A stretch of DNA of 64,000 nt from Candidatus Rokuibacteriota bacterium (lineage in GTDB: Bacteria; Methylomirabilota; Methylomirabilia; Rokubacteriales; CSP1-6): the NCBI GenBank assembly GCA_003220495.1, contig QHSP01000021.1, forward strand, positions 1-64,000, in the 5' to 3' direction. The position numbers were made by a program, and so were the translations under genes. Below the pieces are notes generated by a model. It saw only the letters and a program-made list of their open reading frames with translations. It did not search any database and had not been told where the DNA came from. How positions within the stretch are numbered: the stretch's first letter is position 1; each line of letters begins with the position of its first letter. This document shows, in pieces, positions 4,424 through 39,312 of the stretch.

Positions 4424-4438
4424 CGCGGCCTCAGGCCG

Positions 4439-6004
4439 TTACTTCTCGACCCAGACGTTGGCGAACCGGACCCGCTGCGTCTTCTCGTCGAAGCCCTTCG
4501 TCGTGTTGCGGATCGCACGAAGCCCGGCGAGGTCGCCGTAGCGGATCATCGGCACCTTCTCGTAGACCTGCCGGGTCTGCTGCTCCCACATCGCCATGCG
4601 CTTTTTGGGATCGATCTCTCGGGCCATCTCCGCCTGGAGCTTCAGGATGTCCTCGTCGGTTGTCCAGCCCGGCCAGTTCGCAGTGAGAAAGTTCACGTGG
4701 GCCGGGTCGTAGATGGCGCCGATGCCGGTGGTGAACGCGTCGTACTCCTTCGAGTTGTTCCGCCGCTTGACCAGGGTGGCCCAGTCGACGACTTGTAAAT
4801 CGATGGTGAATCCGACGTCCTCGAGCTGCTGCTTGGTCAGCAGCGCGAAGTCGTACATCCACTTGTACTCCTGCGTGGTCATGAAGCGAACCGGCTCTTT
4901 TTTGTAGCCGGCCTCCTGCAGGAGCCGCCTGGCCTTCTCCTTGTTCCGCTCGTTCCACGGCAGGCCCGAGAGCTTCGTGTGCCACGCGGCGATCTCGGTC
5001 ATGATCAGGCTCGAATCCATCCGGTAGAACTCGCTGTGGCCGCCGGCCACGTTCTTCATGATCGGCTCGATGTCGATCGCCGCCTGCCAGGCCTGGCGCA
5101 GCTTCTGATTCGTCATCAGGCCTTCCTTTTTGTTGAGAACCGCGACGAGCCAGCCGTTGCCTTTGGCCACGATCGGGCGCAGGCCCGGGTTCTTCTTCAG
5201 CCGATCGTAGGCATCGAGGTTCAGGTCGTCGGCGAAGTCGAGCTCACCCGTCTCCACCTGGGCGACGCGCGTGGCCACCTCGGGCACCGGCTGCCAGCGG
5301 ATCTCGTCGAGATACGCGGTCTTGCCGCCGCCGAACCCGTTGGGAGCCTCGTTGCGCGACCTGTACTCGTCGAACCGCACCATGCGGATGTGCTGGTCGG
5401 GCTTCCATTCGGCGAGCTTGAACGGGCCCGTTCCCACGAATTCGGTCGCCTTCACCTCGGGCGCGAACTTCTCGGCGATCTCCTTCGGGTAGATGGCGCC
5501 GAAGTTGTTCGGCACCGCCAGCGAGATCAGCACGATCGCCGACTTCTCCTTCAGCTTCATCTCGACCGTGTATTTGTCGAGGGCCTTCCACTCGGCGACC
5601 TGGGCGAACAGGGCCTTGCCGTAGACTGACTGCTTGCCCCAGCGCGCCAGCGAGGCGACGACGTCTTCCGAGATCATCTCCTTGCCGTTATGAAACTTGA
5701 CGCCCTGCCGGAGCTTGAAGGTGTACGTGAGGCTGTCCTTGCTCACCGAGTGACTCTCCGCCAGCATCGGGATCGGGCGGTTGGTCGCGTCGAGGGTGTA
5801 GAGCCCTTCGTAGATGTGATTGCCCAGCGTTTCGGTGATCGTCGCGGTCGTCCAATGGACGTCGAGGGACGGGGGCTCGCCGAGGATCCCCACCCGGAGC
5901 GCGCCACCCTTCTTCTGCGCCTCGGCGGTGAGGGTATTCAGGCCCAAGAGCGCCAGCGACGCCAAAGCGAGCAGCACCGCCCGGCGATACGGCTTCAGCG
6001 ACAT
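4439..6004 (-). CDS. Peptide-type ABC transporter substrate-binding protein (copy 1)
   Basis: A 521-residue family 5 extracellular solute-binding protein (DppA/OppA class). It has a Sec signal peptide with a likely cut after AEA at residue 29. LKEKSAIVLI, a GTGPFKL segment (191-197) and the two-lobe layout are typical. The start at 6004 has GGAGGT six bases upstream; a longer in-frame N-terminus would bury the signal peptide. It is a tandem duplicate of the next gene upstream: both are 521 residues and my hand alignment gives 54 differences over the 491 mature residues, about 89% identity. Differences cluster at 272-284 and 431-443, probably near the ligand pocket. Confidence 0.93.
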   Translation of the reverse strand: MSLKPYRRAVLLALASLALLGLNTLTAEAQKKGGALRVGILGEPPSLDVHWTTATITETLGNHIYEGLYTLDATNRPIPMLAESHSVSKDSLTYTFKLRQGVKFHNGKEMISEDVVASLARWGKQSVYGKALFAQVAEWKALDKYTVEMKLKEKSAIVLISLAVPNNFGAIYPKEIAEKFAPEVKATEFVGTGPFKLAEWKPDQHIRMVRFDEYRSRNEAPNGFGGGKTAYLDEIRWQPVPEVATRVAQVETGELDFADDLNLDAYDRLKKNPGLRPIVAKGNGWLVAVLNKKEGLMTNQKLRQAWQAAIDIEPIMKNVAGGHSEFYRMDSSLIMTEIAAWHTKLSGLPWNERNKEKARRLLQEAGYKKEPVRFMTTQEYKWMYDFALLTKQQLEDVGFTIDLQVVDWATLVKRRNNSKEYDAFTTGIGAIYDPAHVNFLTANWPGWTTDEDILKLQAEMAREIDPKKRMAMWEQQTRQVYEKVPMIRYGDLAGLRAIRNTTKGFDEKTQRVRFANVWVEK

Positions 6005-6035
6005 GCGCGACCTCCGGCTCGTTGACCCCACCGCG

Positions 6036-7601
6036 CTACTTCTCGACCCACACGTTGTAGAAGCGGATGCGCTCGGTCTTCTCGTTGAAGCCCTTGGTCG
6101 TGTTGCGGATGGCGCGAAGTCCGAAGAGATCGCCGTAGCGGATGACCGGCACCTTCTCGTAGAACTGCCGGGTCTGCTGCTCCCACAGCGCCATGCGCTT
6201 CTTGGGGTCGGTCTCGCGCGCCAGCTCGGCCTGGAGCTTCAGGATGTCCTCGTCGGTGGTCCAGCCCGGCCAGCTCGGTGTGAGAAAGGCTGGGTGGGTC
6301 GGGTCGTAGAAGGCGCCGATGCCGGTGGTGAAGGCGTCGTACTCCTTCGAGTTGTTCCGCCGCTTCACCAGGGTGGCCCAGTCGACCACCTGTAAATCGA
6401 TGTTGAACCCGACATCCTCGAGCTGCTGCTTGCTCAGCAGCGCGAAGTCGTACATCCACTTGTACTCCTGCGTCGTCATGAAGCGGATCGGCTCGTTCTT
6501 GTAGCCGGCCTCCTGCAGGAGCTTCTTGGCTTTGGTCTTGTTCCGCTCATTCCACGGCAGACCTGAGAGCTTCGTGTGCCACGCGGTGATCTCGACCATC
6601 GCCAGGCTCGAGTCCATCCGGTAGAATTCGGAGTGACCGCCCGCCACGTTCTTCATGATCGGCTCGATGTCGATCGCCGCCTGCCACGCCTGGCGGAGCT
6701 TCTGATTCGTCATCAGGCCCTCCTTCTTATTGAGGACCGCGACGAGCCAGTAGTAGGGCTTCGAGACGAGCGGGCGCAGATTTGAGTTCTTCTTCAGCCG
6801 GTCGTAGGCATCGAGGTTCAGATCATCGGCGAAATCCAGCTCACCCGTCTCGACCTGGGCCACGCGTGTGGCCACTTCCGGCACCGGCTGCCAGCGGACC
6901 TCGTCCAGATAGGCGGTCTTGCCTCCGCCGTAGCCGTTCGGCGCCTCGTTGCGCGACTTGTAGTCGTCGAACCGGACCATGCGGATGTACTGGTCGGGCT
7001 TCCACTCGGCGAGCTTGAAGGGGCCCGTCCCGACGTACTCCGTCGCCTTGACCTCGGGCGCGAACTTCTCGGCGATCTCCTTGGGATAGATGGCGCCGAA
7101 GTTGTTGGGCACCGCGAGCGAGATCAGCACGATCGCCGATTTCTCCTTCAGCTTCATCTCGGCGGTGTACTTGTCGAGCGCCTTCCACTCGGCCACCTGG
7201 GCGAAGAGCGCCTTGCCGTAGATCGACTGCTTACCCCAACGGGCGAGCGAGGCGACGACGTCCTCGGAGGTCATCTCCTTGCCGTTGTGGAACTTCACGC
7301 CCTGGCGGAGCTTGAAGGTGTAGACGAGGCCGTCCTTGCTCACGGTGTGGCTCTCGGCCAGCATCGGGATCGGACGGTTCGCGCTATCGAGGCTGTAAAG
7401 CCCCTCGTAGATGTGGTTCGTCAGCGTCTCGGTGATGCTGGCGGTCGTCCAGTGCGCGTCGAGCGACGGCGGCTCCCCGAGGTTGCCGACCTTGAGGACG
7501 CCACCCTTCTTCTGGGCCTCAGCGGTGAGCGCGCTCCCGGCGACCAGCACGAGAGCCGCCAGAACGAGCGACACGTATCTGCGACTCAGGCTCGATGACA
7601 T
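6036..7601 (-). CDS. Peptide-type ABC transporter substrate-binding protein (copy 2)
   Basis: The first gene of the peptide-transporter operon encodes a second 521-residue family 5 solute-binding protein with a signal peptide ending near AEA-QKKGG. The ATG at 7601 is chosen because GGAGG lies five bases upstream; a GTG two codons earlier would overlap that site. It is nearly identical to copy 1, only 31 bases downstream. It carries LVSKPYYWLVA where copy 1 has IVAKGNGWLVA, and FYDPTHPAFLTPSW against IYDPAHVNFLTANW. These contrasts suggest a shared permease with two related specificities. The actual ligands are unknown. Confidence 0.93.
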   Translation of the reverse strand: MSSSLSRRYVSLVLAALVLVAGSALTAEAQKKGGVLKVGNLGEPPSLDAHWTTASITETLTNHIYEGLYSLDSANRPIPMLAESHTVSKDGLVYTFKLRQGVKFHNGKEMTSEDVVASLARWGKQSIYGKALFAQVAEWKALDKYTAEMKLKEKSAIVLISLAVPNNFGAIYPKEIAEKFAPEVKATEYVGTGPFKLAEWKPDQYIRMVRFDDYKSRNEAPNGYGGGKTAYLDEVRWQPVPEVATRVAQVETGELDFADDLNLDAYDRLKKNSNLRPLVSKPYYWLVAVLNKKEGLMTNQKLRQAWQAAIDIEPIMKNVAGGHSEFYRMDSSLAMVEITAWHTKLSGLPWNERNKTKAKKLLQEAGYKNEPIRFMTTQEYKWMYDFALLSKQQLEDVGFNIDLQVVDWATLVKRRNNSKEYDAFTTGIGAFYDPTHPAFLTPSWPGWTTDEDILKLQAELARETDPKKRMALWEQQTRQFYEKVPVIRYGDLFGLRAIRNTTKGFNEKTERIRFYNVWVEK

Positions 7602-18173: not shown

Positions 18174-18328
18174 CCGGTGGGGGCGCGGGGCGTGGGCCGG
18201 TGGGGGGAGGGGCGCGGCGAAGTGGGACCCCCTCGTCCCGTCCGCGGCTCGAAGAGCCGCGAATCGGGCGAGCGGGTGACGCAGCCGCGCCCCTCCCCCC
18301 ACCGGCCCACGCCCCGCGCCCTCACCGG
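18174..18328 (-). repeat. Long hairpin element, copy 1
   Basis: A 155-nt inverted-repeat element. Arms of 45 bases (18174-18218 and 18284-18328) pair perfectly except for one G-T position. They enclose the 68-nt core shared with two other loci (18219-18286). The core itself folds, with a stem of GCGGCTC and GAGCCGC around GAA, flanked by CTCG/CGAG and CCCG/CGGG pairs. It lies 16 bases after the SDR stop and 28 bases before the ChaN-like start, so it would be in the RNA of both. It could act as a terminator, processing signal or mobile palindrome. Confidence 0.85.
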
Positions 18329-18344: not shown

Positions 18345-19136
18345 TCATTGCGAAGCGCCAAGTGATCCCTCGGGAGTCGTCACGGTGAGCCCGGCGTCGA
18401 TGATGAGAGTTTGCCCCGTGACCCAGCGCGCCTCGTCGCTGGCCAGGTAGACGGCGCCCCAGCCGATGTCCCACCCGGTCCCCTCGGTGCCGAGCGGGCT
18501 CGCGCGGCGCCGCCTCTCGCGCGCTTCGCTCCCGAGATCCTGAACCATCGGCGTCCACACCGGCCCCGGCGCGATCGCGTTGACACGAATGCCCTTCGGG
18601 CCGAGCTGAACGGCGACCGAGCGCACGAAGCCGATCACACCCGCCTTGGCGGTCGCGTACGCGGTGCGGCCGTAGCCGCGCAGCCCCGCGATCGACGACA
18701 CGCAGATCACGGCGCCAGCGCCGCGGCGAGTCATCGCGGGCACGGCGGCCTGCGTGGCGAGGAACATCGACTTGAGGTCCACCGCGATGACGCGGTCCCA
18801 TTCTTCTTCGGTGGTGTCGAGCAAGCCCTTCCGCGACTCGATGCCCACGTTGTTGTGCAGGATGTCGACGCCGCCCCAGCGATCCACGGCGGCCCTGACC
18901 ATGGCGGCGCACTCGGCGGCGCGCGTGACGTCGGCGGCGTGCGCCGTCGCCTCGCCGCCCTCGGCGCGAATCGCCCCGACGGTTTCCTCGGCGCGTTCCT
19001 TCATCTGATCGACGCAGAACACCTTGGCGCCCTCGCGCGCGAAGAGGATGGCCGTGGCCTTGCCGTTGCCCAGGCCCGGGCCGCGCGACCCGGCGCCGGT
19101 AATGATCGCGATCTTGCCGTTCAGGCGGCCGCTCAT
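18345..19136 (-). CDS. Short-chain dehydrogenase/reductase
   Basis: A 263-residue classical SDR. It has the cofactor glycines in TGAGSRGPGLGNG (a slightly extended loop), HNNVG in place of NNAG, and the catalytic Ser in VSSIAG. The Tyr/Lys pair is in YATAKAG, and the C-terminal loop is PGPVWTPM. It oxidises or reduces a hydroxyl/keto group with NAD(P). The longer glycine loop and WDIGWGAVYLASDEARWVTG end resemble SDRs annotated near CoA-ester degradation, but the substrate is undetermined. Its ATG lies seven bases after the Lhr helicase stop. A long hairpin element follows its own stop. Confidence 0.9.
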   Translation of the reverse strand: MSGRLNGKIAIITGAGSRGPGLGNGKATAILFAREGAKVFCVDQMKERAEETVGAIRAEGGEATAHAADVTRAAECAAMVRAAVDRWGGVDILHNNVGIESRKGLLDTTEEEWDRVIAVDLKSMFLATQAAVPAMTRRGAGAVICVSSIAGLRGYGRTAYATAKAGVIGFVRSVAVQLGPKGIRVNAIAPGPVWTPMVQDLGSEARERRRRASPLGTEGTGWDIGWGAVYLASDEARWVTGQTLIIDAGLTVTTPEGSLGASQ

Positions 19137-24477: not shown

Positions 24478-24647
24478 CGGCACGGGCTCCGGCCGGTGGG
24501 GCGAGGGGGGCCCCGGCGACGCGGCCGTGCGGAGTGGGACCCCCTCGTCCCGCCCGCAGCTCGAAGAGCTGCGATTCGGGCGAGCGGGTGACGGAGCCGG
24601 CCGCGTCGCCGGGGCCCCCCTCGCCCCACCGGCCGGAGCCCGTGCCG
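24478..24647 (-). repeat. Long hairpin element, copy 2 (longest perfect arms)
   Basis: A 170-nt element with perfectly complementary 50-base arms (24478-24527 and 24598-24647) around the shared core (24531-24598). Compared with copy 1, the core stem carries A-T instead of G-C at one pair (GCAGCTC/GAGCTGC against GCGGCTC/GAGCCGC), which keeps pairing. The arm shares an 18-nt block with copy 1, with one mismatch (24491-24508), but is otherwise different. It starts 12 bases after the stop of the FMN-binding-like gene and lies about 117 bases before the hydrolase start. Confidence 0.87.
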
Positions 24648-24659
24648 ATTTCCCGTGGC

Positions 24660-25253
24660 TTAGCGCAGAAGCATCGCAGCGCCGGACGGGCGGATGCCGT
24701 ACTCGTAGAGGAGAGCGGCGCGGCGGACGAGGTTGGCGACGACCTCGCCGTAGAACTGGGTCATCGAGTTGCTTCGAGCGCGCGCCAGGCGGTCGGACAG
24801 GGCAAAGCGGCTCTGGCTGTCGTGGCCGACCCAGTCTTGAGTGAACTGCCCGTCGATGAGCGGCTTGACCCACGGATAGGTCTCCTCGGTCAGCTCGACG
24901 ACACTGGCGCCGCGCACCTTGCCGTCGGGGCCGAACGCGGTGGCGACCCGGACACTGCCGTGGATCGTCGCCTCGCCGATGAAGACGAGCGAACCGACCA
25001 TCCGTTCCTGGTCGTCGCGCCCCACGTAAAAGCGATAGAAGTCCTCCTCCGGTGTCCAGCCCGACGCTTGCCTGATCGCGGCCTTCTCCTTCTCGCTCAA
25101 GCGCACCTCGCGCACGAAGAAGCGACGCGCTCCCGGCAGGAGCGACACCACCGCGTCGCGGTCGTTCACGAGCACGACCGGTGGAGTCAGATGGGCCAGC
25201 GCTGGGCTCGCGAGCGCGAGGGCCAGCGCCAGCGCGACGACGATGTGTCTCAT
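24660..25253 (-). CDS. Exported protein, possible FMN-binding-like domain
   Basis: A 197-residue protein with a clear Sec signal peptide (cut after ALA, about residue 20). The middle (FYVGRDDQERMVGSLVFIG, then VRVATAFGPDGKVRGASVVE) resembles the beta-strand pattern of periplasmic FMN-binding domains such as those of NqrC/RnfG, but I see no certain flavin-attachment motif. It is coupled by a four-base overlap to the membrane protein upstream and belongs to the porin cluster. It may carry electrons in the periplasm; this is tentative. Confidence 0.62.
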   Translation of the reverse strand: MRHIVVALALALALASPALAHLTPPVVLVNDRDAVVSLLPGARRFFVREVRLSEKEKAAIRQASGWTPEEDFYRFYVGRDDQERMVGSLVFIGEATIHGSVRVATAFGPDGKVRGASVVELTEETYPWVKPLIDGQFTQDWVGHDSQSRFALSDRLARARSNSMTQFYGEVVANLVRRAALLYEYGIRPSGAAMLLR

Positions 25254-38373: not shown

Positions 38374-38522
38374 GAGACGGGCGGGTGGCATCGGGCTGCC
38401 CCGAGGTCGGCGGGCGTAGTGGGACCCCCTCGTCCCGCTCGCAGCTCGAAGAGCTGCGATTCGGGCGAGCGGGTGACGCAGCCCGCCGACCTCGGGGCGG
38501 CCCGATGCCACCCGCCCGCCTC
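38374..38522 (-). repeat. Long hairpin element, copy 3 (inside the Liv operon)
   Basis: A 149-nt element with 42-base arms (38374-38415 and 38481-38522) matching except for one A-C mismatch and one T-G wobble. They surround the shared core (38416-38483). The core differs from copy 2 at only three of 68 positions by eye. Its arms have no clear relation to those of the other copies. It lies 22 bases after the livG stop and 92 bases before the livF start, so it interrupts an otherwise tight operon and should influence livF expression. Confidence 0.85.
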
Positions 38523-38544: not shown

Positions 38545-39312
38545 CTATTCGCTGCCAAGATAAGCCTCGATAACACGCGGATCGCGCTGGACCGCAGCCG
38601 GCGACCCTTCGGCGATCTTCTGGCCGAAGTTGAGCACGGTGACGACGCGCGAGAGCTTCATCACGAGCGACATCTTGTGCTCGATCAACAGAATCGTCAC
38701 GCCGCGTTGGTTGACCTGCGCGATCAGCGCTTCGAGCTCGAGAGTCTCCGGTGTGTTCATCCCGGCCGACGGCTCGTCGAGGAGCAGCAGCTTCGGCGAG
38801 CTGGCGAGCGCGCGTGCGATCTCGAGCCGGCGCTGCTCGCCGTAGGGCAGCTCGACCGCGGGTCGTCCGGCTTTGCCCGCGAGCCTCACCAGCGCCAGGA
38901 TCTCTCCGGCTCGTTCACGCGCGCTCACTTCCGCGTGCGGCCGGCGGAACGGGACGCCGAGCAGCGGCGACAGGAGACCGCCGTGCGTCCGGCAGTGAAG
39001 CCCGAGCAGGACGTTCTCGAGCACCGTCATCGAGCCGAAGAGCCGGATGTTCTGGAAGGTCCGGCAAATGCCGAGCGTCGTGCGCCGATACGACGGCAGG
39101 CCGCTGATCTCCCCCCCATCGAAGCGGATGTGCCCGGCGTCCGGGCTCAGCGCGCCCGTCACGAGGTTGAAGAAGGTCGTCTTGCCGGCGCCGTTCGGTC
39201 CGATGATCGCGTGGATCCCGCCGGCCTCGACGCTCAGATCGAGGCCCGCGAGCACGAGGAGGCTCCCAAAGCTCCGGGACAGCCGGTCAACCGCGAGCAG
39301 CGGCTCGCTCAC
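38545..39312 (-). CDS. livG: Branched-chain amino acid ABC transporter ATPase LivG
   Basis: A 255-residue ATPase with Walker A GPNGAGKT, a LivG-type insert (GICRTFQNIRLFGSMTVLEN), signature PYGEQRRLEIARAL in place of the usual LSGGQ, and Walker B LLLLDEPSAGMN. It pairs with LivF. The start overlaps the livM stop by 26 bases. A long hairpin element follows 22 bases after its stop. Confidence 0.94.
   Translation of the reverse strand: MSEPLLAVDRLSRSFGSLLVLAGLDLSVEAGGIHAIIGPNGAGKTTFFNLVTGALSPDAGHIRFDGGEISGLPSYRRTTLGICRTFQNIRLFGSMTVLENVLLGLHCRTHGGLLSPLLGVPFRRPHAEVSARERAGEILALVRLAGKAGRPAVELPYGEQRRLEIARALASSPKLLLLDEPSAGMNTPETLELEALIAQVNQRGVTILLIEHKMSLVMKLSRVVTVLNFGQKIAEGSPAAVQRDPRVIEAYLGSE

Follow-up and report, generated by a model that had tools for sequence, protein, structure and literature searches.

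Small transposon-derived hairpins directly past genes in Rokubacteria, with arms that in one genus are probably recopied from each other

Several described systems come close to the long hairpins analysed here. REP/BIME elements and GTAG- or CGTC-tagged palindromes are multi-copy, lie past genes and often form inverted pairs (PMC3733652). MITEs of the IS1380 family are short and geneless. Template switching between inverted-repeat arms homogenises the arms and inverts the spacer (PMC8604942), and it occurs at quasipalindromes in E. coli (PMC7202029). A further proposal is that it gives rise to RNA stems and preserves them; if correction is directed by the 5' arm, the 5' side is predicted to be richer in G. 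Its own proponents called the main evidence for a role in stem maintenance circumstantial (PMC8794818). The origin and upkeep of long perfect stems are an open question.

The hairpins of this study are a family of small transposon-derived DNA repeats directly past genes in Rokubacteria (Candidatus Rokubacteria / Methylomirabilota). They share their multi-copy state, their position and their inverted pairs with REP/BIME and the tagged palindromes, but are much longer, occur in a genus without RAYT and have other ends. Like the IS1380-family MITEs they are short and geneless, and they have their CCCGGAYTATTCRTGAA ends and CTAG borders in common with an IS1380-family element of their own lineage; unlike such MITEs, they are almost wholly palindromic, have a conserved, covarying core and, within the genus, do not share their arms between copies. 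As in quasipalindrome correction (PMC7202029, PMC8604942, PMC8794818), an arm is rewritten from its partner, the spacer is inverted and multi-base changes are matched. Beyond it, we are dealing with a dispersed bacterial repeat family with arms of 40-50 bp and several events at orthologous sites.

Three copies lie in the window, by which we mean the whole stretch of 64,000 nt that was analysed (Table 1). The preliminary description had given them self-complementary arms of 45, 50 and 42 nt, and complementarity was indeed 98%, 100% (50/50) and 95% in copies 1, 2 and 3. Their fold energies were -151.5, -132.8 and -142.1 kcal/mol, far lower than those of dinucleotide shuffles (z = -13.5, -9.3 and -15.2). 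The shared 68-nt core differed at seven positions among the three copies, and the compensatory change reported in its stem (GCGGCTC..GAGCCGC / GCAGCTC..GAGCTGC) was found again. The 18-nt block said to be common to the arms of copies 1 and 2 is real, but contains one mismatch (GGCCGGTGGGGSGAGGGG). Apart from these three copies and one hairpin with a different core, 164 kb of the window contig contained no inverted repeat whose arms reached 22 bp.

Table 1. Hairpin copies in the window and the genes whose 3' ends adjoin them
Feature	Position	Strand	Remarks
Element copy 1	18174..18328	+	G-rich 5' arm 18174-18218, core 18219-18286, C-rich 3' arm 18284-18328
Conserved core of copy 1	18219..18286	+	AGTGGGACCCC...GGGTGACGCAGCC; G-T wobble tolerated by the fold of this strand
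Element copy 2	24478..24647	+	Arms 24478-24527 / 24598-24647, core 24533-24598
Element copy 3	38374..38522	+	Arms 38374-38415 / 38481-38522, core 38418-38483
Arm-correction tract GCCACCC, right arm of copy 3	38507..38513	+	GACAGGMCCC at this place in three orthologues
Gene with 3' end beside copy 1	18345..19136	-	Codon-model gene call; copy 1 lies 16 nt past the stop
Gene with 3' end beside copy 2	24660..25253	-	Codon-model gene call; copy 2 lies 12 nt past the stop
Gene with 3' end beside copy 3	38545..39312	-	Codon-model gene call; copy 3 lies 22 nt past the stop

The core was not limited to the window, as the preliminary description had considered it might be. The full core had 20 copies in the window's genome, 16 of them with matched arms of at least 38 bp; in one further copy (L021) the core was deleted and matched arms of at least 38 bp were still there. 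A covariance model of the core matched 30 places in one congener, 1-8 in five and none in two. Beyond the genus, two further genera of the family gave 12-15 matching places, and a class-level relative gave 5. Pattern matches in Arthrobacter lacked matching arms and were dismissed as chance. Going by the named records, all genus genomes used were metagenome assemblies.

Selection on the core fold, which had been claimed from the single compensatory change, held in an alignment of 102 copies. There, 96.4% of the cells paired and 27 of 35 core pairs had a double change. The covariation score was 0.438, compared with 0.127 in column shuffles and 0.05-0.08 when the partners were slid. On the modelled strand, core-1 wobbles were G-T rather than A-C in a ratio of 48:6 (P = 3e-9). 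Thus, the conserved feature appears to be the fold of the modelled strand, either as RNA or as single-stranded DNA. A conserved stem with asymmetric internal loops is also found in Rfam RNA families, but a search of Rfam gave no match at the gathering score in the window, and only weak, sub-threshold matches at chance level in 11 related loci.

By its sequence, the element belongs with an IS1380-type insertion sequence, of which it is a short, non-autonomous relative (MITE). Full-length elements were 214-220 bp long, bounded by CTAG|CCCGGAYTATTCRTGAA, almost entirely stem and devoid of coding capacity. In the clearest set, that of NC_groundwater_716, many copies had identical arms out to CTAG|CCCGGACTATTCACGAACGG ... 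GTTCATGAATAATCCGCG|CTAG. Ends like CCCGGAYTATTCRTGAA were common to the elements of about 215 bp and an IS1380-family transposon, and in several genomes the element end with CTAG outside it also bordered an IS1380-family transposase element. One such element (in L312) had CCCGGA(T/C)TAT(G/T)CGTGAA at each end and CTAG outside each. The transposase in L297 was identified by NF033539 (E = 8.6e-95) and PF13701 (1.8e-110); its true frame was 1712-2893, and the ORF at the end of the insertion sequence (L297:1497-2939) belonged to no Pfam family and was discarded. Most full-length elements, like the insertion sequence, had CTAG (or YTAR) on either side, as a short target-site duplication would give, although with a palindromic target a duplication is hard to tell from a terminal repeat. 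In these GC-rich genomes, CTAG is frequently the TAG stop codon of a gene. TAG stops were enriched beside core-1 elements both in other genera (33/42 against a background of 26/94) and in the genus (35/65 against 26/138). The shared ends, the CTAG borders and the TAG enrichment together make the family a MITE of an IS1380-type transposon, and the choice of CTAG as target explains its position past genes. Genes for IS1380 transposases were present in several congeners; none was found in the window's own genome. Within the genus, IS1380-type ends were retained only by older type-A copies. In L298 and L303 of another genome (G069), the IS1380-type end CTAGCCCGGACTATTCATGAACG leads into a long hairpin of a different kind, which has arms of about 45 bp and an unrelated interior.

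The preliminary description had suggested that the arms were made de novo at each site. This idea was not supported: in several other genera one arm sequence was common to the copies. It follows that the ancestral element, as reconstructed from these sequences, is an ordinary IS1380-type MITE and the locus-specific arms are derived in this genus; as a family, the element is not exotic. Arms sharing one sequence, which had been named as the mark of an ordinary transposon remnant, were thus found outside the genus and not inside it. Within the genus, the claim that arms are mostly unrelated between sites was borne out, and arms of about 40-50 bp were self-matched within a copy. Among 54 genus copies with a mean arm of 48 bp, 2407 arm positions were matched, 137 were mismatched and 70 were gap columns. 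The 5' arm had more G than C in 54/54, which is the skew predicted for template switching directed by the 5' arm (PMC8794818). Full core-1 arms showed no preference between G-T and A-C wobbles (43:40, P = 0.83). Pairing selection is therefore visible in the core and not in the core-1 arms. The arms of core-2 hairpins had an excess of G-T over A-C (46:18), and there pairing selection may add to copying. The idea that wobble counts prove all arms to be free of pairing selection was rejected; it holds for core 1 and fails for core 2.

Flank comparison showed that many copies occupy orthologous sites in congeners. Between L006 and L061, three indels (10 columns) and five substitutions were identical on both arms, with none unmatched. 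L089 and L036 differed by 11 matched indel columns, again with none unmatched, and one matched substitution. Most copies outside the genus still had an ancestral asymmetric loop, with GGGTGGC on the left and GACAGGMCCC on the right. The right box had been replaced by GCCACCC in L008 (window copy 3), L059 and L084; this is the perfect complement of the left box, which copy 3 retains as its old outer box GGGTGGC. The old asymmetric form was retained by the orthologues of L008 (L089, L036 and L035), of L059 (L034) and of L084 (L092). At these three sites, a multi-base change had turned one arm into the complement of the other relative to the uncorrected orthologues, as quasipalindrome correction does. 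L017 and L063 were also in the corrected, symmetric state and had no scored orthologue. The right arm followed the left in all five of the clearest symmetric copies. Outside the genus, only one of about 70 copies tallied was scored as symmetric only, in a tally based on fuzzy motif matching; the named orthologue cases were checked in alignments. The matched indels and the asymmetric-to-symmetric replacements support copying, as proposed earlier, and not separate point mutations as the process that keeps the arms matched. In the orthologues L005/L033 and L048/L090, arm likeness was indistinguishable from the chance likeness of G-rich arms. At four orthologous sites, the core was found in inverted orientation. 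In metagenome assemblies, a core can be flipped artificially between perfect arms that exceed the assembly k-mer in length, so we regard these inversions as weak evidence.

We consider it probable that the hairpins are old copies of an IS1380-type MITE, inserted at CTAG, whose arms in this genus are repeatedly recopied from each other. The ancestral element was a near-palindrome of about 215 bp, which had two asymmetric internal loops and whose arms were common to its copies. The shared ends, the CTAG borders and the TAG enrichment show that it inserts at CTAG, frequently at a TAG stop. Recopying would be simplest through a switch of template by the DNA polymerase inside the hairpin at replication; conversion between cruciform arms would leave an equal trace. 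With such recopying the arms would stay near-perfect mirrors, as the matched changes show, yet drift freely; the 5' side would turn G-rich and likeness between copies would fade. The core might escape recopying through selection on its fold, or through being renewed from copies elsewhere. Template switching is a known process, and the data fit its action on a repeat family. We rejected copying of the arms from native flank, of which there was a hint at one site; intergenic flanks diverge too fast for such a comparison.

An alternative is that selection for a very stable RNA hairpin, such as a terminator or a stabiliser of the mRNA 3' end, keeps the arms paired through ordinary compensatory mutation. 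Distances of the elements past the stop codon are mostly 0-50 nt, the core covaries strongly, and the 46:18 ratio in core-2 arms is what such selection would give. Orientation is also biased with respect to genes: among elements flanked by a gene 3' end on one side alone, right outnumbered left by 38:11 (core 1) and 22:6 (core 2). All eight element pairs less than 600 bp apart were in opposite orientation with their right sides outward. One such pair is at G000:C47:42221 (-) and 42503 (+), as though two convergent genes had one element apiece. Neighbours more than 600 bp apart did not share orientation, so the bias tracks gene ends, and replication direction was rejected as its cause. With this bias, the sense transcript of the adjoining gene does not read the strand whose fold looks selected, but its complement; the element may act against antisense transcription, or the fold may act as single-stranded DNA. 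Nevertheless, the location past stop codons already follows from CTAG targeting, and core-1 arms had no wobble preference (43:40). Where the two arms have matched indels of 4-5 nt, or a loop has been replaced in one step, the change is not one of point compensation, and a 45th matched pair would be unlikely to add a selectable gain to a stem of about -140 kcal/mol. Selection on an RNA hairpin as the keeper of the arms is quite improbable. As to a U-tract after the stem, no T-run was seen by eye in the flanks of the copies inspected, the three of the window among them. That the hairpins are REP/BIME elements mobilised by a RAYT (Y1) transposase is scarcely credible, although palindromic, intergenic repeats downstream of genes and in inverted pairs are all described for REPs (PMC3733652). 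Y1_Tnp was found in 0/9 genus genomes, for which reason we dropped a RAYT/REP identity. The unit is about 150-220 bp as opposed to the 20-40 bp of a REP, its ends match IS1380, and neither a GTAG nor a CGTC foot was seen at the base of the element.

A further possibility concerns the core itself. The orthologous sites of ten elements contained, in other species, nothing, the same core or either of two unrelated cores with equally matched arms. All nine genus genomes had places matching core 2, 10-48 in each, and 51/54 sampled copies had matched arms of at least 25 bp, also G-rich on the 5' side. Core 3 was matched exactly, as a pattern, 1-7 times in seven of these genomes. The cores differed at the L016 and L007 sites while the outer arms looked homologous by eye, which suggests, at the level of sequence, that cores were swapped between sites. 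The core might then be a mobile unit that enters existing palindromes or replaces their centres, with the arms as target sequence and sites common to different cores. Core 1, 2, 3 or none at orthologous sites agrees with this, as do L061, which has the core type of its own genome where L006, L048 and L090 have another variant in common, and L303, with its IS1380-type ends on an unrelated interior. On the other hand, the arms fall inside full-length elements with CTAG borders, the homology of the outer arms was judged by eye, and we know of no transposase that acts on a bare core. There were also no core-less long palindromes in 164 kb of the window genome, and insertion into pre-existing palindromes was rejected as a general rule. 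We regard a mobile core as unlikely. A modular arrangement can be put forward tentatively: the outer arms would be a persistent, self-matching site, and interchangeable cores would copy into palindrome centres between sites. It would include at least three core families in the genus and a fourth in another genus. If true, it would be a kind of mobility needing only hairpin-primed template switching.

Repeated recopying of the arms of old MITE copies, the reading we prefer, makes this family a natural test bed for the upkeep of long stems. Dozens of long stems evolve in parallel, and several orthologues show the states before and after a change. The wobble comparison separates selection (core) from copying (core-1 arms), and the system lends itself to measuring how fast, in which direction and over what tract length arms are copied. 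It is also a warning that covariation in a hairpin does not by itself prove an RNA function.

Some additional repeats were observed. On the window contig (G000 contig C120), a core-2 hairpin at 92546-92666 (L177:12547-12667) and a core-3 hairpin at 69563-69626 (L176) are oriented like the three window copies. At the site of the core-1 element L016 of the window genome, one other genome has three tandem units of about 181 bp, each with a core-2 hairpin (L164, G007:C60:59871-60353). A further genome (L163, G006:C66:12300-13600) has only a core-less hairpin of 17 bp there; the outer bases of this hairpin agree with the outer arm that the window-genome element has at the site. In the window itself, a direct repeat of 300 nt with 87% identity (4437-4736 / 6034-6333, 1597 nt apart) probably represents duplicated genes.
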